A stretch of DNA of 33,386 bases from Poseidonibacter antarcticus (lineage in GTDB: Bacteria; Campylobacterota; Campylobacteria; Campylobacterales; Arcobacteraceae). The notes below the pieces were generated by a model. That model ran no database searches, was not told the origin of the DNA, and saw only the letters and a list, made by a program, of their open reading frames with translations. Below are positions 8,441 to 18,640 of this stretch, one piece after another (the stretch's first letter is position 1; the number at the start of each line of letters is the position of its first letter). The stretch is from NCBI RefSeq assembly GCF_003667345.1, contig NZ_RCWF01000018.1, forward strand, positions 1-33,386. Direction: 5' to 3'. The translations under genes were made by a program, and so were the position numbers.

Positions 8441-9310
8441 TTAAATTGTATCTATTATAGTATTTAATTTATCCAAATTCTTAAATAATTCATATTTTTT
8501 TGCAATTTTTCTATTTTCTTTTTGGATATATTTCAAGTCTTCTTCTCTACTTAATAAGGCATCAACTTTATATGAAGTTGTTGAATCAGTAGGATTTTCC
8601 ATTGTAGCAAAAATATCAAGTAATTCACTTGAATAATTACTTATCGTGGTTAAAACAGCACATTTACAATACATTGCTTTTAAAATATTCGTTGCAAAAC
8701 TTTTATTATATGTTGGAAGAATAAATATATCTGCAGCTAAAAACAACTCATTTATATTTGAATAATTTTCAAGTAATAAAACTTCATTACCAAAGTTATA
8801 TTTTGATATAAGAAACTTAAGACTATTTATTTGATTTTTATCTGAAGATATAATTATCTGTTTATTCATTGAATTTAAAGATAATATAATATCAAAAAAC
8901 TCCTTAACTCCCGAAGTTTTTAAGTTTTTTGCAGTAAAAAATATGATTTTTGGTGTACTATCTATATCAAATTTTTTACAAATTTTTTCTTTGATTTCTT
9001 TTGGTTTTTTATAAATCATATTTATACTTGGATAAATAACTTCTATATTTTCTTTTGGAATATTTGTTTTATCAATAATTTCACTTCTTAATTGTTTTGA
9101 ATTTACAATAGTTTTCTTTGCATTTTTAATGTTTAAAATAGCTTCAGCATCTAAGTTTCCTGAATGAAAATATATATCTGCATACTCTTTTTTAAAAAAA
9201 GGTAATTTTTTTAAAAGTGATTGTCTTTTTAATGTAAAGACTCTTTCATCTTTTTGTAATTCTTTTATTAGGTTTGTTTTAGTTTTGAAATATATTGATG
9301 TTTTACTCAC
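8441..9310 (-). CDS. GT-B-fold glycosyltransferase-like protein (GT4-like), degenerate EX7E motif
   Basis: A 289-residue protein resembling the GT4/Glycos_transf_1 group: a donor-domain opening PKIIFFTAKNLKTSGVKEFF (about 120-139), then a C-terminal block aligned to the usual ESFG...E motif. Here that block reads KSFATNILK (203-211), so both glutamates are lysines. The protein is shorter than most GT4 enzymes (about 350), mainly in the N-terminal half. No membrane segment is visible. The start is GTG at 9310 after AAGAG; an overlapping CAT in another frame is not used. It lies just outside the glycan gene block and may act in the same envelope glycan, but the acceptor and sugar are unknown, and activity is uncertain. 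Confidence 0.7.
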   Translation of the reverse strand: MSKTSIYFKTKTNLIKELQKDERVFTLKRQSLLKKLPFFKKEYADIYFHSGNLDAEAILNIKNAKKTIVNSKQLRSEIIDKTNIPKENIEVIYPSINMIYKKPKEIKEKICKKFDIDSTPKIIFFTAKNLKTSGVKEFFDIILSLNSMNKQIIISSDKNQINSLKFLISKYNFGNEVLLLENYSNINELFLAADIFILPTYNKSFATNILKAMYCKCAVLTTISNYSSELLDIFATMENPTDSTTSYKVDALLSREEDLKYIQKENRKIAKKYELFKNLDKLNTIIDTI

Positions 9311-9481: not shown

Positions 9482-10720
9482 TTGATTACTTTCATAAAAA
9501 AAATTAGAAATCTACCTAGAATTGATTTAATAAATTATTTAATAGTATTATATGCTTTTACCCTAACTTTTCCCATTGAAATAAAAAGAATTGTTGTTAT
9601 ATTACTAATTGTGTTATGGATAACGGATAAAACTAAATATAGTTTTATCCTACCTAAAACAAATTTATTTTTATTTTTTGGAATATTTATAACTTACTCT
9701 CTATTATCTTATTTTTGGAGTGATTCAACATTACAAGAAGCCTTAAATTATATCAGAAGATATTGGTACTATTTACCAATTTTTATAATGTTTAAATATT
9801 TAAAAAAAGAGTACTTTGAATATACTCTAAGTTTTTTCATTTTTGGAATGTTAATTAGTGAAATTCTTTCTTATGGTAATTATTTTTCATTTTGGCAAAT
9901 AGGACTTGGGGAAGAAAATAATCCAACTGTTTTTATACATCACACCACTTACAGTGTTTTTCTTGCAATTGTTTCTATTTTTCTATTTATAAAAATCTTA
10001 AATGAAAGATTAAAAGTTAAACAAATAATTTATATATTATTTTTTATTACTATAACAATTAATTTATTAGTAAATAGTGGGAGAACAGGATATATTTCTT
10101 TCTTAGTAACATTTTTAATATTAAGTTTATATTTATTCAAAAAAAGGATCAAATATATTTTAATTACTATTTCATCTATAATATTTGTAATTTTTTTAGC
10201 ATATTCTTTAAGTCCAAATTTTAAACATAGAATTAACTTAATTAAAAATGATGTAAATAAAGTATTAACTGAGAATAATTACTCTACAGCAATTGGCGCA
10301 AGAATTGGATTATGGGTTATTTCAAAAAATACAATAATTGAAAATCCAATATTCGGAATAGGAATAGCAGGTAGTCAAAAAGTAAAAAATAATTATATTG
10401 ATACACAGTCAAAAAATGATTTTAGTTATATTAAAACTTTACATAGTTTTCATAATATTTATTTGGAAATATTAATTCAATATGGAATAGTTGGACTAAT
10501 ATTATTTTTTTTAATAATATATGAAATTTTTAAAATAAAAATAAAAAATACAGAAATATATTTATTAAAAAATATTACTCTATCAATTTATTTACTTGGT
10601 AGTTTTGTTGATATACTCTTTTATTTAAAAGATGCAATGCTATTTTTTACTTTTCTAATTGGTTTATTCTTAGCAAATTATAAAATAGAATATCAAAACA
10701 AATTAAGTAATATCAATTAA
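9482..10720 (+). CDS. O-antigen ligase / polymerase family membrane protein (Wzy_C-like)
   Basis: A 412-residue polytopic membrane protein with about ten hydrophobic segments. A long soluble loop before the last helices carries the family hallmark HSFHNIYLEILIQYG, starting at His321; NSGRTGYISF lies mid-protein. WaaL-type ligases join undecaprenyl-linked glycan to lipid A core in the periplasm, while Wzy polymerases share the fold, so either role is possible. Translation starts at TTG 9482: an in-frame TAA lies 12 nt upstream, only AAG, AGA and AAC intervene, and AAGAGA provides an RBS. It is the only plus-strand gene in the glycan region and its 3' end overlaps the convergent neighbour by 18 nt. 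Confidence 0.85.
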   Translation: MITFIKKIRNLPRIDLINYLIVLYAFTLTFPIEIKRIVVILLIVLWITDKTKYSFILPKTNLFLFFGIFITYSLLSYFWSDSTLQEALNYIRRYWYYLPIFIMFKYLKKEYFEYTLSFFIFGMLISEILSYGNYFSFWQIGLGEENNPTVFIHHTTYSVFLAIVSIFLFIKILNERLKVKQIIYILFFITITINLLVNSGRTGYISFLVTFLILSLYLFKKRIKYILITISSIIFVIFLAYSLSPNFKHRINLIKNDVNKVLTENNYSTAIGARIGLWVISKNTIIENPIFGIGIAGSQKVKNNYIDTQSKNDFSYIKTLHSFHNIYLEILIQYGIVGLILFFLIIYEIFKIKIKNTEIYLLKNITLSIYLLGSFVDILFYLKDAMLFFTFLIGLFLANYKIEYQNKLSNIN

Positions 10721-11689
10721 ACTAATATTTTTTTGTTTATAATTCTTATATAAATTTTTATATTCTAAAACCTGTTCTTTCTTTAATAACATTTCTGTAT
10801 CTATTTGTATAATATTTAAAAAATCAATATCATACAAATATCCTATTGTTTCTAAAGCAGTAGATCTAATAGAAATTAATCCATGAGGTTTTCTGCCATA
10901 TTGTAAAATAGCCAATTCTAATATTGTAGAAAACTTCTTAATTTTAAAATTAAATTTTTCTGATATTTTTAACAAATATTCTAAATCTTCATACCTATGA
11001 GGGATATACGTAATTTTATAATCACTATAATATTCAATAACATTTTTAATGATATTCTCAAAATATTGTTTTGAAATATAACTATCAATTAAATTTGAAC
11101 CTATAAAAAATATCTCTTTTTCTTCAGGTAAAGTATCTATAGATTCTTTAAAATTATTAAAGTTATTTTTTAAAATTACATTATTTAAGAAATAAGAATC
11201 CAAATTAAAAAATGTGAAAATTTTCAATTCAATTATAAAATCTAAGGATAGATTTATCCCTAATATTTTATTTCCTAGGGAATTCCTAAATTTATCTTTA
11301 TATTTATTATTTTTAATATTATTTGCTATTAAAAATGTTTCATTACCATCGTCAATTAATATATTATTTTTTGCATTTATTTGATTGATTGAATGTACAA
11401 TATAAGATGTAATCAAACCAAAAAAACAAAATTCAATTTTTTCATATCTCTTTAATATTTTATTTAAAATAAATGGGAAAAAAAGTTTATTAATAGTATC
11501 TAATTTGAAAAAATATATTTTAGTCCATAAATATTCTTTTAAAATCTCATTAAAAAGCTTTCTATCCACCTCATTTTTATATATACATATAACAATATTA
11601 GAACCTTTTCTATTAAATTCTTTAATTGCTTCTATGCAATTAAATAATTGGAAAGGTGTTCGTGCTAATGAAATAGAAACTTTACTCAT
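10703..11689 (-). CDS. Sialyltransferase-like GT-B protein (GT52/polysialyltransferase-type motifs)
   Basis: A 328-residue protein not identifiable with certainty. It starts with SLARTPFQLFNCIEAI, a beginning typical of GT52 and polysialyltransferase-like proteins. It keeps three landmarks in the right order: an acidic D-D-G motif (Asp113, Asp114, Gly115), a PHR with His231, and SIRSTALET with Ser276-Thr277. These correspond to the D/E-D/E-G, HP and SS/ST motifs of bacterial sialyltransferases. Those enzymes move sialic acid from CMP-Sia to a glycan, but no sialic acid synthesis gene lies in this window, so the donor may be another CMP-ulosonic acid. The ATG overlaps the preceding stop (ATGA). 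It is the last gene of the thirteen-gene run. Confidence 0.6.
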   Translation of the reverse strand: MSKVSISLARTPFQLFNCIEAIKEFNRKGSNIVICIYKNEVDRKLFNEILKEYLWTKIYFFKLDTINKLFFPFILNKILKRYEKIEFCFFGLITSYIVHSINQINAKNNILIDDGNETFLIANNIKNNKYKDKFRNSLGNKILGINLSLDFIIELKIFTFFNLDSYFLNNVILKNNFNNFKESIDTLPEEKEIFFIGSNLIDSYISKQYFENIIKNVIEYYSDYKITYIPHRYEDLEYLLKISEKFNFKIKKFSTILELAILQYGRKPHGLISIRSTALETIGYLYDIDFLNIIQIDTEMLLKKEQVLEYKNLYKNYKQKNISLIDIT

Positions 11690-12690
11690 TCGAAATTATT
11701 CCTTATAAAAGCTTTGAAATTTCCATTAATATTTATATTATTAAATTTAATTCTTTTTTCTTCTAAATCAAAATTATTTAATCTGATTATTTGTTTATTT
11801 ACTTCAAATTTCATTAATATATTTTTATAATTTTTATCTGATTTTGAATATTCATTTCCTATAGTATAAACTTTTTTTGACGAAGAAATTGCTTCACTTA
11901 TCATAGAAGAACTCTCTTCTGTTACAAATACAGATGTGCATAAACCTAAAAATGCTAATAATATCTTTTCTTCTTTTTTATTATATGCCACAAAATAAGA
12001 ATAATAATCTTTTAATTCTTTTTCTAATTTAGACTCTATATCTAAAGGTGTTCTTCTTGAAGTTGTAATAAGCCATTTAATTCTTTTTTCTTTAGAAGTT
12101 TTTTTTACAAAATTTATTAAGTTATCATAAAATTTATTATCATATTTATATCCAGCCCCATTACCACCTATTAATAATGTATAATATTTTTGATTACTAT
12201 CTAAATTAGTTAAGTCTATAAATTCTTCCGATTTTACTCTTAATTTCTCTTTCGTAACTACACTAGGTGCAACATCTAAAATAATTTGATTTTTATATCC
12301 TAAATCAATAACAGTTGTAATATATGTAAAGAGTTCTTCTTTTAGTCCTCTCAAAGCTCCATTTAGAATATTTTTACATTTATATATCTTTGAAAACCAA
12401 ACATTTAAATTTGATGTGTTTCCACCTGTTGAAATAATCAAATCTGGCTTATTTTTAGGAGTATCAAACTTTTTATAAAAAAAAGGAAGATATTTTATAC
12501 TATTTTCTGTAAAAAAATTAGGGAAAGTATTTAATAAAATTCTTAATATTTTCCTTTTTAGTTTTGATTTTATTTCAATTTCTATATATTCTATTTCTAA
12601 ATCTTCAAAAATATCTTTTAAATATAATATTAAACCTTCTGTTTGATTATAATGACCTGGTTTATCATCTTTTATTACTAATACTTTCAT
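11686..12690 (-). CDS. ELM1-family (PF06258-like) protein A
   Basis: A 334-residue cytoplasmic protein with the features of the bacterial 'mitochondrial fission ELM1' family. These are an N-terminal strand and loop VIKDDKPGHYNQTEG (5-19) with the hallmark KPGH, then LLIGGNGAGYKYD, ITTSRRTP and EESSSMISEA. The order suggests a GT-B-like fold, and bacterial members usually lie in lipid A/LPS gene sets, so a role as a glycosyltransferase is plausible but not shown. It is paralogous to the gene at 16888-17757, which shares KPGH, TTSRRT and S-M-SEA. The start overlaps the GT4 stop by one base (TAATG) and its stop overlaps the next start (ATGA). Confidence 0.8.
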   Translation of the reverse strand: MKVLVIKDDKPGHYNQTEGLILYLKDIFEDLEIEYIEIEIKSKLKRKILRILLNTFPNFFTENSIKYLPFFYKKFDTPKNKPDLIISTGGNTSNLNVWFSKIYKCKNILNGALRGLKEELFTYITTVIDLGYKNQIILDVAPSVVTKEKLRVKSEEFIDLTNLDSNQKYYTLLIGGNGAGYKYDNKFYDNLINFVKKTSKEKRIKWLITTSRRTPLDIESKLEKELKDYYSYFVAYNKKEEKILLAFLGLCTSVFVTEESSSMISEAISSSKKVYTIGNEYSKSDKNYKNILMKFEVNKQIIRLNNFDLEEKRIKFNNININGNFKAFIRNNFE

Positions 12691-13706
12691 TATTTTAAAA
12701 CTTTATTATATATATCAATTGTCTCATCTACCATATTTTCAATAGTAAATTTTTTTTCTGCATAATTAAATTTTTCTTGAAATTCTTTTAATACTTTTTC
12801 ATAATTATCTTTTACATATCCTATTTTAGTAGAAATTTCATTTGCATTTGAAAAAGGTACAATATATTTATTACCAAGAAGTTTAGGCATATCTGAAACT
12901 GGTGTTGAAATAAATGGTGTTTTACAGAACATAGTCTCAACAAAAGTATAGGGAAAACCTTCATTATCAGATGACATTACAAATAAAGAAGATGATGTAA
13001 CAATTTTTTTGACATCTGTATTTACTACATTACCTGTAAATGTTATTTTATTCTTTATATTTAATTTTTCTGCTTCTTTCTTAAGATTATTTTCTTCTTC
13101 TCCTGAACCAACTAAAATTAAATGTAAATCTAAATTTTTAATTGCCATTAAAATTAATTCAAATCTTTTCACCTTTGTTAATCGCGCAACACTACAGATT
13201 ATGAATTTGTTTTTTTCTATATTATATTTCTCGCAAAGATCTATTTTTAAATTTTCATTACTATTAAATTCAATTCCATTATAAATTACAACTTTATTCT
13301 TTGTTTTTAATTTTTTTCCAATATAATCAGAAACTGTAATTACAAAATCACTTTTTTCAAAAGATGACAAATTGTTTTTATAGTTATGTAGTGTTGAAAT
13401 AATCTTTGAGTTAATAAATGGTTTTAATTTTATTACCATTGATGTAGCTTTATTTGCTTGAGTATGAATAATATCAAAATTTTCTTTTTTTAATATTTTC
13501 AAAAGCTTAAATAGAATAAAAAAATTATTTCTACTTTTTGATAAATCAAGAGGGATAAAGTTTATATTTTCAAAGAATTTCTCAAAATCTTTATGTGCGA
13601 TAACTGTAACATTAAAACCTTTTTTTACTAATTGTTTTGATAATTCAATAGTATGTTTTTCTAATCCACCATCTTCATTTCCAGCAAGAACTTGACATAT
13701 TCTCAT
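12690..13706 (-). CDS. Glycosyltransferase family 4 protein
   Basis: A 338-residue GT-B enzyme. The acceptor domain begins MRICQVLAGNEDGGLEKHTIELS, where GGLEKH is the usual glycine-rich acceptor loop. The donor domain starts near residue 168 with FIICSVARLTKVKRFE. The EX7E motif is intact in NEGFPYTFVETMF, followed by PFISTPVSDMPKLL. It would transfer a sugar from a nucleotide donor to the growing envelope glycan on the cytoplasmic face; donor and acceptor cannot be told. Its ATG overlaps the deacetylase stop (ATGA), and its own stop overlaps the next start, so it is tightly coupled inside the operon. Confidence 0.88.
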   Translation of the reverse strand: MRICQVLAGNEDGGLEKHTIELSKQLVKKGFNVTVIAHKDFEKFFENINFIPLDLSKSRNNFFILFKLLKILKKENFDIIHTQANKATSMVIKLKPFINSKIISTLHNYKNNLSSFEKSDFVITVSDYIGKKLKTKNKVVIYNGIEFNSNENLKIDLCEKYNIEKNKFIICSVARLTKVKRFELILMAIKNLDLHLILVGSGEEENNLKKEAEKLNIKNKITFTGNVVNTDVKKIVTSSSLFVMSSDNEGFPYTFVETMFCKTPFISTPVSDMPKLLGNKYIVPFSNANEISTKIGYVKDNYEKVLKEFQEKFNYAEKKFTIENMVDETIDIYNKVLK

Positions 13707-14521
13707 TTATTTAATCCTCTCAATCCTCTTTTTAATTTAATTTTAAAAGCAAGAATATTATCTTTTCCACTAATAGTAATTCTATCAAGTTCAAATATGT
13801 TAGCTTTAGTTAAATTATTAATACCTTTTTTAGTAGTCACTGCATTTGTATAAAAGGAATCTTTGGTAATTTGAATATCTTCATTGTCATATAAACCAAA
13901 AGGATAACAAAAAGAATTACATTTTATTTTAAAATTTTCTTCTATTATTATTTTAGAATTATAAATTTCATTTTTCTTATCATTACTACTTAGTGTTGGC
14001 AAATTGTTATGTGTCATAGTATGAGAACCAATTTCAATCAATCCCGAATTTATAAGTTTAACAATTTGCTCATCTAATAACTTAGGTTCATTTTTCAATT
14101 CACCATTATTATTTTTCTTTTTTCGTTTTGATGACCATTCTCTATTATGTCTATGCACAACTAAATATATTGTAGCTTTAACATTATATTTTTCAAGAAT
14201 AGGAAAAGCATTAGTAAAATTATCTTCATACCCATCATCAAATGTAATAGCAACAGATTTATTAGGTAAAGAGCTTTTAGAGTTAATTAATTCACTCATA
14301 GTAAAAAAAGTCCAACCAGTATCTACTAAATATTTTATTTGTTTCTCAAATTCTATAGGATCAACTCTTAAACCATTAAATTTTGCACCCTTTTTATGTT
14401 TACTAATCATATGATACATAAGAATACGAGGATACTTTAAATTAACAGTTTTAGTCCACCATGCATATCTAAAAGAGTAATAAATAGCTAAAATAAATAA
14501 AAATATTAATAAATATTCCAA
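13703..14521 (-). CDS. Membrane-anchored polysaccharide deacetylase (NodB/CE4 domain)
   Basis: A 272-residue protein with one N-terminal hydrophobic segment (about 3-21), then a CE4 catalytic domain. Metal and catalytic residues are visible: AITFDDGYEDN with Asp95 and Asp96, and SHTMTHNNL with His167 and His171. CYPFG-like FCYPFGLYD follows. CE4 enzymes remove N- or O-acetyl groups from sugars, or formyl groups as in ArnD. Here the target is likely the glycan built by this locus. The start is TTG at 14521, one base after the preceding stop, and is supported by a strong GGAGGG RBS (14536-14531) 9 nt upstream. Without that start the anchor would be lost. Confidence 0.88.
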   Translation of the reverse strand: MEYLLIFLFILAIYYSFRYAWWTKTVNLKYPRILMYHMISKHKKGAKFNGLRVDPIEFEKQIKYLVDTGWTFFTMSELINSKSSLPNKSVAITFDDGYEDNFTNAFPILEKYNVKATIYLVVHRHNREWSSKRKKKNNNGELKNEPKLLDEQIVKLINSGLIEIGSHTMTHNNLPTLSSNDKKNEIYNSKIIIEENFKIKCNSFCYPFGLYDNEDIQITKDSFYTNAVTTKKGINNLTKANIFELDRITISGKDNILAFKIKLKRGLRGLNK

Positions 14522-14522
14522 A

Positions 14523-15608
14523 TTATAATACCCTCCTATAAACTTTTAAATTCAATTCTAACATATTCTCCAAAGAAAAATTATCAGATATATAAGTATA
14601 TCCATCAAAATTGAAATTTTTAGATTTTATAATATTATTTGCTAATTCTTTTTCATTTCCAACTTCAAAGAAAAAGCCGTTTTCATTTTCTTTTATAATA
14701 TCTTTTACACCACCATGATTAGTGGCAATTACAGGTGTATTCATTGCAATTGATTCAGCAACTGCACGTCCGAAACTTTCTGGTTTTTTTGAGCTACTAA
14801 CTACCACATTACTTAATGCATAAATTTCTGCTATTTTACTTTGACTTCCGGTAAAAATGATATTATCTTTTAAGTCTAATTCTATGATTAGTTTTTTTAG
14901 TGAGTTTAAATAATCTTCTTTATCACTTCTAACACCACCAACTATTAAAGCTTTTACATTTGGGATTATATTTTTAACAATTGATACTGCTTTTATAAAT
15001 GTTTCATAATCTTTTAATTGTGTAATTCTTCCTACACTTGAGATTATAAATTTATTTTCTAGATTATTTTCTTTTTTAAAATTTGATATAAAATCATTTG
15101 ATATATTTTTAGGGTTAAAAACATCCAAATCAATTCCTCTAGGAATTATAGTTATTTTATTTTCTGGTGTTTGGTAATGTTTTTGAATATACTCTTTAAT
15201 ACTTCCACTTACACAAATAACTGCATTAGCATTTTGCATTATTTTACTATAAAAACTAACAGAATTGAAACCATGAACAGTAGATACAACTTTTATATTT
15301 AGTTTTTTATTTGCAAAATAAACAAGCCAAGCTGGTACTCTACTTCTTACATGAATAATATCAGGATTAATCTGTTTCAAAATCTTTTTTAATTTGTTGA
15401 TTCTTGAAAATGATGTAAATATATTTTTACTACAAACATCAAATTTGATATGAGTTCCGCCATCAATATTTATTTGATTATCAAGTTTCCCGCCATTGCT
15501 AATAACATACGATTCAATTGCTTTTTTTACATATTCGCGATTTAGTTCAACAACACCACGTTCAACTCCACCTTCATTTAGCTCTGGAAGTAACTGTACA
15601 ATTCTCAT
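14523..15608 (-). CDS. Glycosyltransferase family 4 protein
   Basis: A 361-residue GT-B enzyme of normal GT4 length. The N-terminal acceptor loop is PELNEGGVERGVVELN, and the domain linker leads to KFIISSVGRITQLKDYETF (about 187-205). The donor block PESFGRAVAESIA has an intact EX7E, followed by PVIATNHGGVKDII. This resembles LPS core or O-unit transferases that act on a lipid-linked or lipid A acceptor, but the sugar specificity cannot be read. It starts 3 nt after the UDP-sugar dehydrogenase stop and ends one base before the TTG of the deacetylase, whose RBS lies within its last codons. Confidence 0.9.
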   Translation of the reverse strand: MRIVQLLPELNEGGVERGVVELNREYVKKAIESYVISNGGKLDNQINIDGGTHIKFDVCSKNIFTSFSRINKLKKILKQINPDIIHVRSRVPAWLVYFANKKLNIKVVSTVHGFNSVSFYSKIMQNANAVICVSGSIKEYIQKHYQTPENKITIIPRGIDLDVFNPKNISNDFISNFKKENNLENKFIISSVGRITQLKDYETFIKAVSIVKNIIPNVKALIVGGVRSDKEDYLNSLKKLIIELDLKDNIIFTGSQSKIAEIYALSNVVVSSSKKPESFGRAVAESIAMNTPVIATNHGGVKDIIKENENGFFFEVGNEKELANNIIKSKNFNFDGYTYISDNFSLENMLELNLKVYRRVL

Positions 15609-15611
15609 ATA

Positions 15612-16877
15612 TTATAGTTTCCAAGTAGGATTAGGAACTATTCCTTTTACATCTATAATAATTTTTTCATCATTAATGATATTTTCATATTCTTCTTGAC
15701 TTAATTCTTTAAATTTATTATGTCCAACAGCTACAACTATTGAATCATATTTTTTATTTGATTTAAATGGATTTTCAACAAAAGTATAATCATAATAGTC
15801 TTTATCTTTTTCATCAATCCATGGTTCATATACATCAATATTTGCACCATAGTCTTTTAGTTCTTTGATAATATCTACTACTTTTGTATTTCTAATATCA
15901 GGGCAATTTTCTTTAAAAGTTAATCCCATTACTAAAATATTTGCATCTTTTATTATTTTTCCATTTTTTATCATAAGTTTTATAGTTTTTTCTGCTATAA
16001 ATTTACCCATACCATTATTGATTTGTCTTGCACCTAAAATAAGATTTGGTTTATATCCTAATTCTTCTGATTTATAAGTAAGATAATATGGATCAACACC
16101 AATACAATGTCCACCTACTAAACCTGGTTTTAGTTTTATAAAATTCCATTTTGTTGCTGCAGCTTCTATTACATCATTTGTATTTATATTCATAACATCA
16201 AAGATTAATGCTAATTCATTTACTAATCCAATATTTACATCTCTTTGTGTATTTTCAATTACTTTTGCAGCTTCTGCTACTTTTATTGAGCTTGCTTTAT
16301 GAGTTCCTGCTGTTATTATACTTTTATATAAATCATCTACAATATCAGCAATTTTAGGTGTTGAACCTGATGTAATTTTAAGTATTTTTGTAACTGTATG
16401 TTCTTTATCACCTGGGTTTATTCTCTCAGGAGAATATCCACAGAAGAAATCTGTATTAAATTTCATTCCTGAAGTAATTTCAAGTTGAGGCACACATACT
16501 TCTTCTGTAACACCTGGATAAACTGTTGATTCATAAATTACAATATCATCTTTTTTAAGTACTTTACCAATAGTTTGAGAAGATTTAATCAAAGGTGTTA
16601 AATCAGGTCTATTTGAGTGGTCAATTGGAGTGGGAACTGTAACAATATAAATATTACAATCTTTTATATCTTCTATATTTGAAGAATAAATTAATTTATC
16701 TTTTACAGCAAGAAGTTGTTCTTTTTCTAATTCTAAAGTTCTATCGTAACCTTTAGATAATTCTTCAATTCTTGGTTGATTTATATCAAAACCTACAACA
16801 TCATATTTTGTTGCGAATGCTGCTGCTAAAGGTAAACCTACATATCCTAGACCTACTATACATATTTTATTATTCAT
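15612..16877 (-). CDS. UDP-sugar 6-dehydrogenase (TviB/WbpO-type)
   Basis: A 421-residue NAD-dependent enzyme that oxidises C6 of a UDP-hexose or UDP-N-acetylhexosamine twice to give the uronic acid. The NAD-binding loop is VGLGYVG (8-14). The N-terminus, with FDINQPRIEEL and YDRTLEL, resembles TviB/WbpO-type UDP-GlcNAc/GalNAc dehydrogenases more than Ugd. The catalytic Cys258 is in KPGLVGGHCIGVDPYYL, with GLTFKENCPDIRN in the C-terminal domain. It implies that an (N-acetyl)hexosaminuronic acid occurs in the glycan made here. It lies 10 nt after ELM1-family protein B. No partner epimerase is in the window, so the exact sugar is unresolved. Confidence 0.9.
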   Translation of the reverse strand: MNNKICIVGLGYVGLPLAAAFATKYDVVGFDINQPRIEELSKGYDRTLELEKEQLLAVKDKLIYSSNIEDIKDCNIYIVTVPTPIDHSNRPDLTPLIKSSQTIGKVLKKDDIVIYESTVYPGVTEEVCVPQLEITSGMKFNTDFFCGYSPERINPGDKEHTVTKILKITSGSTPKIADIVDDLYKSIITAGTHKASSIKVAEAAKVIENTQRDVNIGLVNELALIFDVMNINTNDVIEAAATKWNFIKLKPGLVGGHCIGVDPYYLTYKSEELGYKPNLILGARQINNGMGKFIAEKTIKLMIKNGKIIKDANILVMGLTFKENCPDIRNTKVVDIIKELKDYGANIDVYEPWIDEKDKDYYDYTFVENPFKSNKKYDSIVVAVGHNKFKELSQEEYENIINDEKIIIDVKGIVPNPTWKL

Positions 16878-16887
16878 TTAAAACCTT

Positions 16888-17757
16888 CTATATTTCAACT
16901 TTTTCTAGTAATTTACTAAAATCTAATTTTTTATCTATATTATTTACAATCTCAGCTAGTTTATGGAACTTTGTATCCGTTTTACTTGCTCTAAGATTAA
17001 TTATTGTAATTGGTGCATCTGTATTTGCTCTTGCTTCACTAAGCATTGATGTAGAATCAATTGTAATAAATAATTCTTCACATTTATCTATAAAATCTGG
17101 TATTGGATTTATTGAGGGAGTATCTGAATAAATTAATTTATAATCAAAATCATATTCATTTATTAAATCTTCTATTTGCTTAGATGTTCTTCTTGAAGTA
17201 GTAATATACTTTAAATAACCATCATAATTTTTACTTATTATATTTAATACATTTCTAATATTTTCCACATCCATTTTGAAAATACTATTATCCCCACCAA
17301 TGATTATACCTAGTGATTTTTCATTACTTTTAATTATACCTTTTGGCTTTGTGTATGATAAATTTAAAGGAAGGGAAATTATATTACCAAGTTTTGGAGC
17401 ATTGTCATGCTCTTGAGCTAAAATATAATAAAAATCTTTATAATTATAAGATTTAGGAAGCATTAATGCTATTGATTTTATATTATTTTTTTTAGAAATA
17501 AACTTATTAAAATAATAAGTTCCAGAACCAGTACTAACTACAGCATCGTAGAAGTCAAAATTATATTTTTTATATTCTTTAAATAATTCATCTGAATATT
17601 TTTGGAGTTTATCTAAAGCATATGTAAGTAATTTAAAAAATTTTGATTTAAATTTCACTTCTAATATATCGTAGCTTATTTTTTTTATCTTACAAAATGC
17701 AATTGATTGATTTAAGTGACCTGGTTTTCCATCACTAATTATTAAAATTCTTTTCAT
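16888..17757 (-). CDS. ELM1-family (PF06258-like) protein B
   Basis: A 289-residue paralogue of the ELM1-family protein at 11686-12690, with ILIISDGKPGHLNQS at its N-terminus, IIIGGDNSIFKMD, ITTSRRTS and IDSTSMLSEA. A longer reading frame opens at 17820, but I chose the ATG at 17757. It puts the KPGH motif at residues 11-14, as in the paralogue, and it follows an AGAGAG RBS. It also reduces overlap with the acyltransferase gene from 86 to 23 nt. The family is often found with LPS genes and looks GT-B-like; a sugar transfer role is inferred. It lies directly after the LpxL-family gene, suggesting action on lipid A or inner core. Confidence 0.8.
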   Translation of the reverse strand: MKRILIISDGKPGHLNQSIAFCKIKKISYDILEVKFKSKFFKLLTYALDKLQKYSDELFKEYKKYNFDFYDAVVSTGSGTYYFNKFISKKNNIKSIALMLPKSYNYKDFYYILAQEHDNAPKLGNIISLPLNLSYTKPKGIIKSNEKSLGIIIGGDNSIFKMDVENIRNVLNIISKNYDGYLKYITTSRRTSKQIEDLINEYDFDYKLIYSDTPSINPIPDFIDKCEELFITIDSTSMLSEARANTDAPITIINLRASKTDTKFHKLAEIVNNIDKKLDFSKLLEKVEI

Positions 17758-18640
17758 ATATCTCTCTATAATGACTCTTAAACCTTTTATGAGGCCAAAA
17801 CCATTGTTTTTTATCTTCAAGTATTATATCAGATATTGCATTAGCTTGAAGTTGAGATAACTCTTTTATATCATTTTCTTCATTTTCTGTTTTTATAGGT
17901 AATATAGGATTATAAACTTTTATTTTATATTTGTAATCATTTTTATTAAATATAGCAAGTGGAATAATAACAGCATCGAATTTTCTAGCAAGAATTGCAG
18001 AAGTTGATGCTTGATATGCTTTTTTTCCTAAAAAGTCTACTTGTGTACCTTCTCTTGAATTAATATTTTGATCAATGATTAAAGATATTGCTTCTTTTTT
18101 AATTAAGGCTTTTACAAGTTTTTTAACAGCACCTTTTCTAAATACTATTTTTGATCCTGATTTTTCTCTTGCTTTTACAATAAATTCATCAATTTCTTCA
18201 AAATTTGATTGTCTTGCTACCTGATGTAATTTTGCTACATTTTTATTAATATACGTACTAAGCATTTCCATATTACCAAAATGCGCCGAAATAAAAATAA
18301 TAGGTTTATTCTCAGAGATAACTTTTTCTACTATTTCTTTATTTTCAATTGATACTGTATTTAATAATTCTTCATCTGTAATATCTAAATTTTCTATAAG
18401 TGATTGAACCCATAACAACATATTAAAATATGAATATTTTTGAATTTCTTTTATCTCTTTTTCAGAAATTTTATCATTAAAAATAAATTTTAAATTTGTT
18501 TTTATAATTTTATTTGTTTTATTAGCAAATAAATAAGCAAGTGCTGATAGAAATCTAAAAAAACCTCGTCGTATAAATTTTGGAGATTTTCTTAAAATAA
18601 ATACCAAAGCTAAAAATATTTTATAAACAATCTTCTTCAT
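17735..18640 (-). CDS. lpxL: LpxL/HtrB-family lipid A acyltransferase
   Basis: A 301-residue inner-membrane-associated acyltransferase. The HX4D/E catalytic motif is SAHFGNMEML with His120 and Glu125. An N-terminal hydrophobic stretch (about 5-18) precedes a basic segment, and the C-terminus has the family's QWFWPHKRFKS. LpxL-type enzymes add a secondary acyl chain to Kdo2-lipid A. The choice between LpxL and LpxM type is not possible from sequence here; the symbol marks the family. It overlaps the ppx-like stop by one base (TAATG) and overlaps the start of ELM1-family gene B by 23 nt, which ties lipid A finishing to the glycan genes. Confidence 0.88.
   Translation of the reverse strand: MKKIVYKIFLALVFILRKSPKFIRRGFFRFLSALAYLFANKTNKIIKTNLKFIFNDKISEKEIKEIQKYSYFNMLLWVQSLIENLDITDEELLNTVSIENKEIVEKVISENKPIIFISAHFGNMEMLSTYINKNVAKLHQVARQSNFEEIDEFIVKAREKSGSKIVFRKGAVKKLVKALIKKEAISLIIDQNINSREGTQVDFLGKKAYQASTSAILARKFDAVIIPLAIFNKNDYKYKIKVYNPILPIKTENEENDIKELSQLQANAISDIILEDKKQWFWPHKRFKSHYREIYEKNFNN

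Follow-up and report, generated by a model that had tools for sequence, protein, structure and literature searches.

P0001, a gene on a 33,386-nucleotide stretch of Poseidonibacter antarcticus DNA (contig NZ_RCWF01000018.1, the whole of which we call the window), probably encodes an extra 3-deoxy-D-manno-oct-2-ulosonic acid (Kdo) transferase of the lipooligosaccharide (LOS) core, derived from sialyltransferases and using cytidine monophosphate (CMP)-Kdo as donor; we give this reading a probability of about 0.65. We favor CMP-Kdo because i) the LOS sialyltransferases Lst and LsgB provide a precedent, ii) the genomic context is that of the LOS core, and iii) CMP-Kdo is the sole donor common to the genomes compared; the acceptor, linkage and activity of P0001, like its donor, are those we infer from such comparisons. 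A broader proposition, on which the arguments seem to us evenly balanced, is that the sialyltransferase superfamily contains a dedicated branch of Kdo transferases, marked by Arg275, whose genes would move between members of the Moraxellaceae and the Arcobacteraceae as part of KdoT-type LOS-core islands and whose enzymes would cap the core with one more Kdo, even in hosts unable to make a sialic-acid-like sugar of any kind. The P. antarcticus genome (G000) comprises 2.9 Mb in 55 contigs, and Poseidonibacter lies within the Arcobacteraceae, Campylobacterota.

Gene, fold and putative active site

10703–11689, minus strand: P0001, open reading frame (ORF) with ATG start, 328 amino acids (aa)

The first-pass annotation had called a sialyltransferase-like protein here without giving its strand. 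The ORF is real, and the landmark residues lie where they had been placed: DDG at 113–115 (within ILIDDGNET), the His of PHR at 231, and the Ser-Thr of SIRST at 276–277. Across 78 aligned family members Gly115 and Glu258 never vary, whereas Asp113 is kept by 76 and His231 by 77. That PHR stands in place of the usual HP is borne out by the outlying relatives L055 and L057, which show PHPRD where P0001 reads PHRYE, and His231 is therefore the HP-motif His; the motif name HP, like the family labels GT80 and GT30, follows general usage and the literature. A chance ORF carrying chance motifs is ruled out by syntenic orthologs of 66–67% identity in three other genomes, by purifying selection, and by the invariance of the motifs. 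The ratio of nonsynonymous to synonymous substitution rates (dN/dS, NG86) is 0.19–0.26 over six ortholog pairs, and its value of 0.23 for one of these, G001–G030, indicates that the G001 copy is kept.

An AlphaFold2 model built from P0001 and 50 relatives (pLDDT 95.1, pTM 0.91) retrieves as its top PDB entries in Foldseek the polysialyltransferase structures 5wc6 (E 6.4e-10) and 5wcn, with the Neisseria LOS sialyltransferase NST at ranks 3–5 and a Pasteurella sialyltransferase also present. VIA aligns 318 of the 328 residues with 5wc6 at 4.6 Å (Z 21.0; 20.8 for 5wcn); the next entry after this pair is a Photobacterium sialyltransferase (Z 15.2), and UDP-GlcNAc 2-epimerases score about 13–14. 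The model has a GT-B fold of polysialyltransferase type over its full length, along which the acidic pair with its Gly, the HP-type His, the ribose Glu, and the Ser/Thr pair follow in order. Going by the model, it is near certain that P0001 belongs to the GT38/GT52-like (PF07388) superfamily of GT-B enzymes. We consider it very unlikely that P0001 kept this fold while moving to a UDP- or CDP-linked sugar, with a donor that is no ulosonate: genomes with a relative and no NeuB do exist, the sequence is remote from every enzyme whose structure has been solved, and UDP-sugar GT-B enzymes reach Z 13–14, but the residues of the putative CMP site are retained (H231, E258, S276, and T277 or Ser), and a gap of almost 6 Z units separates the polysialyltransferase from the entry that follows.

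In the polysialyltransferase MhPST (PMC5517516), the base E153 is kept in place by Q41 and Q44; H291 and S339/T340 bind the phosphate, and E323 binds the ribose. Mapped by order and spacing, P0001 has counterparts in the same order and at similar spacing, and by this analogy it would be an inverting enzyme with the following putative sites:

Q14/N17: counterparts of Q41 and Q44
D113-D114-G115: base region, its acidic pair corresponding to E152-E153
H231: HP-type histidine
E258: ribose
R275: branch marker
S276-T277: phosphate

Sequence evidence for this class, which the first-pass annotation had given as a GT52/polysialyltransferase-type CMP-sugar transferase, comes through relatives. PF07388 (alpha-2,8-polysialyltransferase family) is matched neither by P0001 (E 10) nor anywhere in its genome, nor does P0001 itself match the GT52 profile PF07922, so that the profile check proposed earlier is negative for P0001 and positive for some of its relatives: PF07388 is matched by 4 of 14 and 13 of 51 aligned family members and PF07922 by 4 of the 51, the remaining members, P0001 among them, matching neither. 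L055, which the family profile retrieves at 1.3e-11, matches NST at 7e-24. Because these intermediates match PF07388 and PF07922, and because L055 matches NST, the family is placed by transitive homology between GT38-like and GT52 enzymes; together, the model fold and these sequence chains support the class. Family profiles A1, A3, and A4 gave no credible PDB sequence match, and L023 alone likewise; profile A5 reaches NST at 3.4e-19, partly by construction, as it contains the GT52-like rows L055 and L058. NCBIfam matches among A1 members were scattered weak singles and were disregarded.

Relatives occur in 16 of 104 genomes of the same family (P. antarcticus included), in 21 of 397 drawn from the phylum (one of which, G285, looks spurious and has an ExbD-type reading), and at 56 loci of the GTDB collection, counted as 55 since L118 yielded no family ORF. 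Natural pathway fusions are found around the family: a 1045-aa ORF contains the family domain (L115:5812-8949), two CMP-synthetase ORFs also match PseG (L091:7292-9001 and L096:2608-4248), and a CMP-transferase domain is also present in several ORFs some 770 aa long.

CMP-sugar donors in P. antarcticus and in genomes with relatives

Contig C8 of P. antarcticus carries PseB, PseC, PseF, PseG, and PseI of the pseudaminic acid (Pse) pathway, all above NCBIfam cut-offs. PseI is the only NeuB-family match in the genome; the CMP-transferase matches comprise PseF and KdsB along with two weak matches, of which the one scanned is MocA-like, and minor matches comprise a weak PseF-query match on C4 (E 0.01) and a second MocA-size match on C12. 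NeuB-family and CMP-transferase searches found no NeuA- or LegF-like gene. The genome search suggested by the first-pass annotation for neuA-, pseF-, or legF-type genes therefore succeeds for PseF, with its full pathway, and fails for the other two; the refuting combination named there, with KdsB as the sole CMP-ulosonic acid synthetase and no match to a CMP-binding GT-B fold, does not apply to this genome. Judged by these genes, CMP-Pse and CMP-Kdo are available in P. antarcticus, and CMP-N-acetylneuraminic acid (CMP-Neu5Ac) and CMP-legionaminic acid (CMP-Leg) are not evident. PseI is separated from the other Pse genes by a short-chain dehydrogenase/reductase (SDR) gene and an acyl-CoA-ligase-like gene (L035:7985-10038), possibly for a modified pseudaminic acid.

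Relatives of P0001 usually keep company with ulosonic acid genes. A NeuB or CMP-synthetase ORF lies in the fetched DNA at 40 of the 55 GTDB loci, often adjoining the family gene, a count made with flanks of unequal length and with a CMP-synthetase profile that cannot separate KdsB from PseF-type enzymes; and NeuB is present in 29 of the 30 genomes of the same family or phylum that have a relative. The exception, G001, is a single contig (100% complete, 3% contamination) with a 66% ortholog of P0001 in the same syntenic LOS locus; it has no NeuB, and its only PF02348 match is KdsB. G092 (Poseidonibacter lekithochrous A1R12), of the same genus and with a 67% ortholog, encodes a short NeuB together with a CMP-synthetase that carries, as a fusion, a domain like that of 2-keto-3-deoxynononic acid (Kdn)-9-phosphatase (L154:405-3994; 178.5 bits, cut-off 180), making its ulosonate pathway Kdn-type; a similar pair lies beside the family member at the Aquimarina loci L119 and L120. 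The donor sets of the four syntenic Arcobacteraceae orthologs are accordingly Pse in P. antarcticus, Pse and another in G030 (which carries a 71% PseF), Kdn-type in G092, and none in G001, and the only CMP-ulosonate donor common to all four is CMP-Kdo.

The same holds farther afield. NeuB is also absent from Alkanindiges illinoisensis DSM 15370, Acinetobacter gandensis ANC 4275, and one Moraxellaceae metagenome-assembled genome (MAG), and in these two isolates and the MAG the only CMP-ulosonate synthetase found is KdsB-type. For G001, A. illinoisensis, and A. gandensis, KdsB is confirmed by NCBIfam and the other PF02348 matches are GlmU or MocA-like; in the MAG the check covers the MocA-like match. 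By these searches, each of the eight tested genomes of the branch described below could make CMP-Kdo, and no other such donor is common to them all; of the donors left open by the first-pass annotation (Neu5Ac, Pse, Leg, and Kdo), comparison across genomes points to the last.

A branch marked by Arg275

In a maximum-likelihood tree of 72 rows, the clade containing P0001 groups with a mostly Moraxellaceae set (support 90/88); the deep forks are weak, and long branches meet (L057 and L109). Arg275, beside Ser276-Thr277, is found in 13 of the 78 aligned members (13 of 82 after four were added), namely the four Arcobacteraceae orthologs, four Moraxellaceae GTDB loci, and five further Acinetobacter loci. 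It occurs in no other member, including G617 as well as L071, L077, and L078 inside the same clade. Twelve of the 13 carriers lie in loci with LOS-core genes, and neither ELM1 nor LpxL is seen on the fetched contig of the thirteenth, L076. Further markers of the branch are S198, Y233, and an acidic side chain at position 280. The best tree requires three changes to account for the carriers, but a tree that unites them in a single clade is not rejected either (p-AU 0.40).

Four of 8 Arg275-bearing genomes lack NeuB, vs 1 of 39 others (Fisher p 0.0018, post hoc and ignoring relatedness). Six rows, all with NeuB, were dropped from this count: G285 for its ExbD-type reading, G053 and G455 as fragments lacking position 275, G195 as a split gene, and G458 and G475 as the same assemblies as G092 and G426. 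G477, a partial genome of 0.9 Mb, was kept as the sole genome with neither Arg275 nor NeuB. Residue 275 of L093 and L111, which lie outside the 78 rows, was checked separately for this count. A looser genome list gives p 0.0013.

Several observations weigh against a Kdo transferase, or against a branch of them: i) CMP-Pse can be made in P. antarcticus itself, as set out above; ii) P0001 alone has no match in Pfam, PHROG, or PDB sequences at E 10, nor in NCBIfam at E 1; iii) Arg275 was chosen as a marker post hoc, and only 24% of bootstrap trees unite the residues' carriers in one clade; iv) a completeness figure is available for G001 (100%) and not for the three Moraxellaceae genomes, one of them a MAG; v) lack of NeuB argues against Neu, Pse, Leg, and Kdn, yet is compatible with a switch to a donor that is no CMP sugar; vi) among titles and the beginnings of abstracts, we found no LOS structure for P. 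antarcticus; vii) in the branch adjoining the P0001 clade, L067-L069 lie near, and convergent with, genes 79–84% identical to the PseI of P. antarcticus; and viii) inside the clade, L071 and L078 lie beside Pse-type genes and L077 beside NeuB. From the last two points it follows that the ancestral donor may have been Pse-type. L067-L069 also lie downstream of, and in the same orientation as, HldE/GmhA-like heptose genes (L067:3-2268; names from translations), which is another LOS-core setting.

P0001 might on this account be a LOS-core pseudaminic acid transferase using CMP-Pse from the C8 cluster, with the complete pathway in its own genome, the PseF of G030, and the Pse-type neighbors of its relatives all speaking for it; but the G001 ortholog, in a complete genome, in the same locus, and with dN/dS of 0.23 relative to G030, persists with KdsB and no NeuB, the synthase and synthetase of G092 are Kdn-type and not Pse-type, and the Pse pathway often serves flagellin, all of which makes a Pse transferase unlikely. 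P0001 might instead be promiscuous, transferring Kdo where nothing else is made and elsewhere Pse or Kdn mixed with Kdo, much as Lst and LsgB can place Kdo instead of Neu5Ac (PMC8092323), and the four orthologs do coexist with four different donor sets; this too is rather unlikely, since the Arg275 branch has conserved positions of its own (S198, Y233, R275, and acidic 280), which argues for a settled donor. We thus retain the CMP-Kdo transferase as the preferred reading.

Gene cluster and LOS-core context

P0001 sits at the downstream end of a row of LOS-biosynthesis genes (11686–18640), with a convergent ligase-type gene beyond it:

8441–9310, minus strand: GT4-type glycosyltransferase, cluster flank
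9482–10720, plus strand: Wzy_C protein of the O-antigen ligase family; its gene and P0001 converge, with an 18-bp overlap at the 3′ ends
11686–12690, minus strand: ELM1-family (PF06258) protein with SRRT motif, KdoT paralogue, overlapping the start of P0001 by 4 bp
12690–13706, minus strand: GT4-type glycosyltransferase
13703–14521, minus strand: polysaccharide deacetylase, 49–54% identical to deacetylases of the compared Acinetobacter core loci
14523–15608, minus strand: GT4-type glycosyltransferase
15612–16877, minus strand: nucleotide-sugar dehydrogenase, above the TIGR03026 cut-off
16888–17820, minus strand: ELM1-family protein with SRRT motif, true start probably internal
17735–18640, minus strand: lipid A lauroyl acyltransferase, LpxL/HtrB type, above an NCBIfam cut-off

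The first-pass annotation's remark that the window holds no neu, pse, or leg gene stands: there is none among 10 cluster ORFs (Pfam and NCBIfam) or one further ORF (Pfam), nor among the other ORFs of the window as judged by translation alone. Both ELM1 proteins match the PF06258 profile as well as having the SRRT motif. The dehydrogenase is TviB-like (537 bits with the UDP-GlcNAc 6-dehydrogenase model, cut-off 592) and is therefore called Gna-like.

The orthologs of P0001 occupy syntenic LOS loci in all four Arcobacteraceae genomes, and a comparable setting recurs in Acinetobacter, where 7 of 175 genomes have a relative. In A. gandensis it lies between ilvE and aspS with ELM1, GT4, pyruvyltransferase, LpxL-type, and deacetylase genes; ilvE-aspS is the outer-core locus of Acinetobacter baumannii, in which the shared gene gtrOC1 is ELM1-type (PMC4172580). 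Six of the seven relatives are beside aspS, with an LpxL-type gene between in five, and ilvE falls within the fetched stretch in five of these six; the relative in the seventh genome, G617, is beside NeuB- and PseF-like genes. The homolog in G625 (L147:9574-10356), in an Acinetobacter core locus, is 260 aa long and lacks the N-terminal part, and is possibly a decayed gene, or else has a wrong start. Among the GTDB loci, ELM1 genes occur at 4 of the 5 with Arg275 vs 2 of the other 50, and the ELM1 protein beside Acinetobacter ilvE is nearer to that encoded at 16888–17820 (352 bits) than to the other of the window (64 bits).

KdoT, an ELM1-family protein with an SRRT motif, is a CMP-Kdo transferase that adds a third core Kdo; the section of the paper on its distribution names Acinetobacter and, more distantly, Rickettsia, and does not name Campylobacterota (PMC12856342). 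The deacetylase and Gna are parts of the same Acinetobacter core pathway (PMC10936431). With its Gna-like dehydrogenase, Pda-type deacetylase, ELM1, and LpxL genes, the cluster at 11686–18640 resembles the Acinetobacter core locus, which suggests that a core island has been transferred between phyla.

Proposed mechanism and significance

We propose that P0001 is an inverting GT-B glycosyltransferase which would act on the growing LOS core, moving a 2-ulosonic acid from a CMP donor. A carboxylate of D113-D114-G115, held by Q14/N17, would activate the acceptor hydroxyl, H231 and S276/T277 would stabilize the leaving CMP, and E258 would hold the ribose. KdsB would make the CMP-Kdo, and P0001 would add a Kdo beyond those contributed by WaaA and the KdoT-like ELM1 protein.

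If this is true, a branch of CMP-Kdo transferases is rooted in the sialyltransferases, and Arg275 is a residue with which to test the choice between Kdo and nine-carbon ulosonic acids as donors; "sialyltransferase-like" genes of bacteria without sialic acids would become predicted Kdo transferases; and the Acinetobacter-type core pathway (KdoT, Gna, and Pda) may be present in Campylobacterota as well. Among titles and the beginnings of abstracts, with a bias toward open access, we found none on this enzyme or on the LOS of Poseidonibacter.

Comparison with known systems

Aquifex WaaA (PDB 2xci), a GT-B Kdo transferase, ranks 19 in the Foldseek search with the P0001 model (E 7.3e-5). P0001 as WaaA was rejected: it lacks PF04413 (Glycos_transf_N), for which each of the four ortholog genomes has a separate match. 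GT99, GT107, and GT140 (WbbB, KpsC, and KrkA) are retaining beta-Kdo transferases with a nucleophilic Asp and Kdo donors, and the C-terminal domain of KrkA resembles the GT38 structure 5wcn (PMC12887879); no entry of these three families is among the Foldseek and VIA matches listed for the P0001 model, an absence that excludes nothing.

MhPST (GT38; PDB 5wc6 and 5wcn; PMC5517516) matches the model fold best, along almost the full length of P0001. The two proteins are 17% identical, P0001, like its family, has HR for HP, and no counterpart of R259 is evident in P0001; in further contrast to MhPST, the P. antarcticus genome yielded no sialic acid pathway, and P0001 lies in a LOS-core locus, given which it would probably add one residue and not a polymer.

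The GT52 enzymes Lst/NST and LsgB (PDB 2yk4-2yk7) act on LOS, as we propose for P0001, and are linked to it via relatives such as L055, although P0001 has no direct sequence link to GT52. Lst and LsgB can transfer Kdo from CMP-Kdo onto LOS in place of Neu5Ac, a reaction that N. meningitidis Lst carries out when cells make no CMP-Neu5Ac, CMP-Neu5Ac and CMP-Kdo being competitors for Lst in that species (PMC8092323). KdoT of A. baumannii (ELM1; PMC12856342) is of another family, P0001 having no SRRT motif and no ELM1 profile match but a DDG/His/Ser-Thr site instead; the two nonetheless share the kind of locus and, if our prediction is right, the donor.

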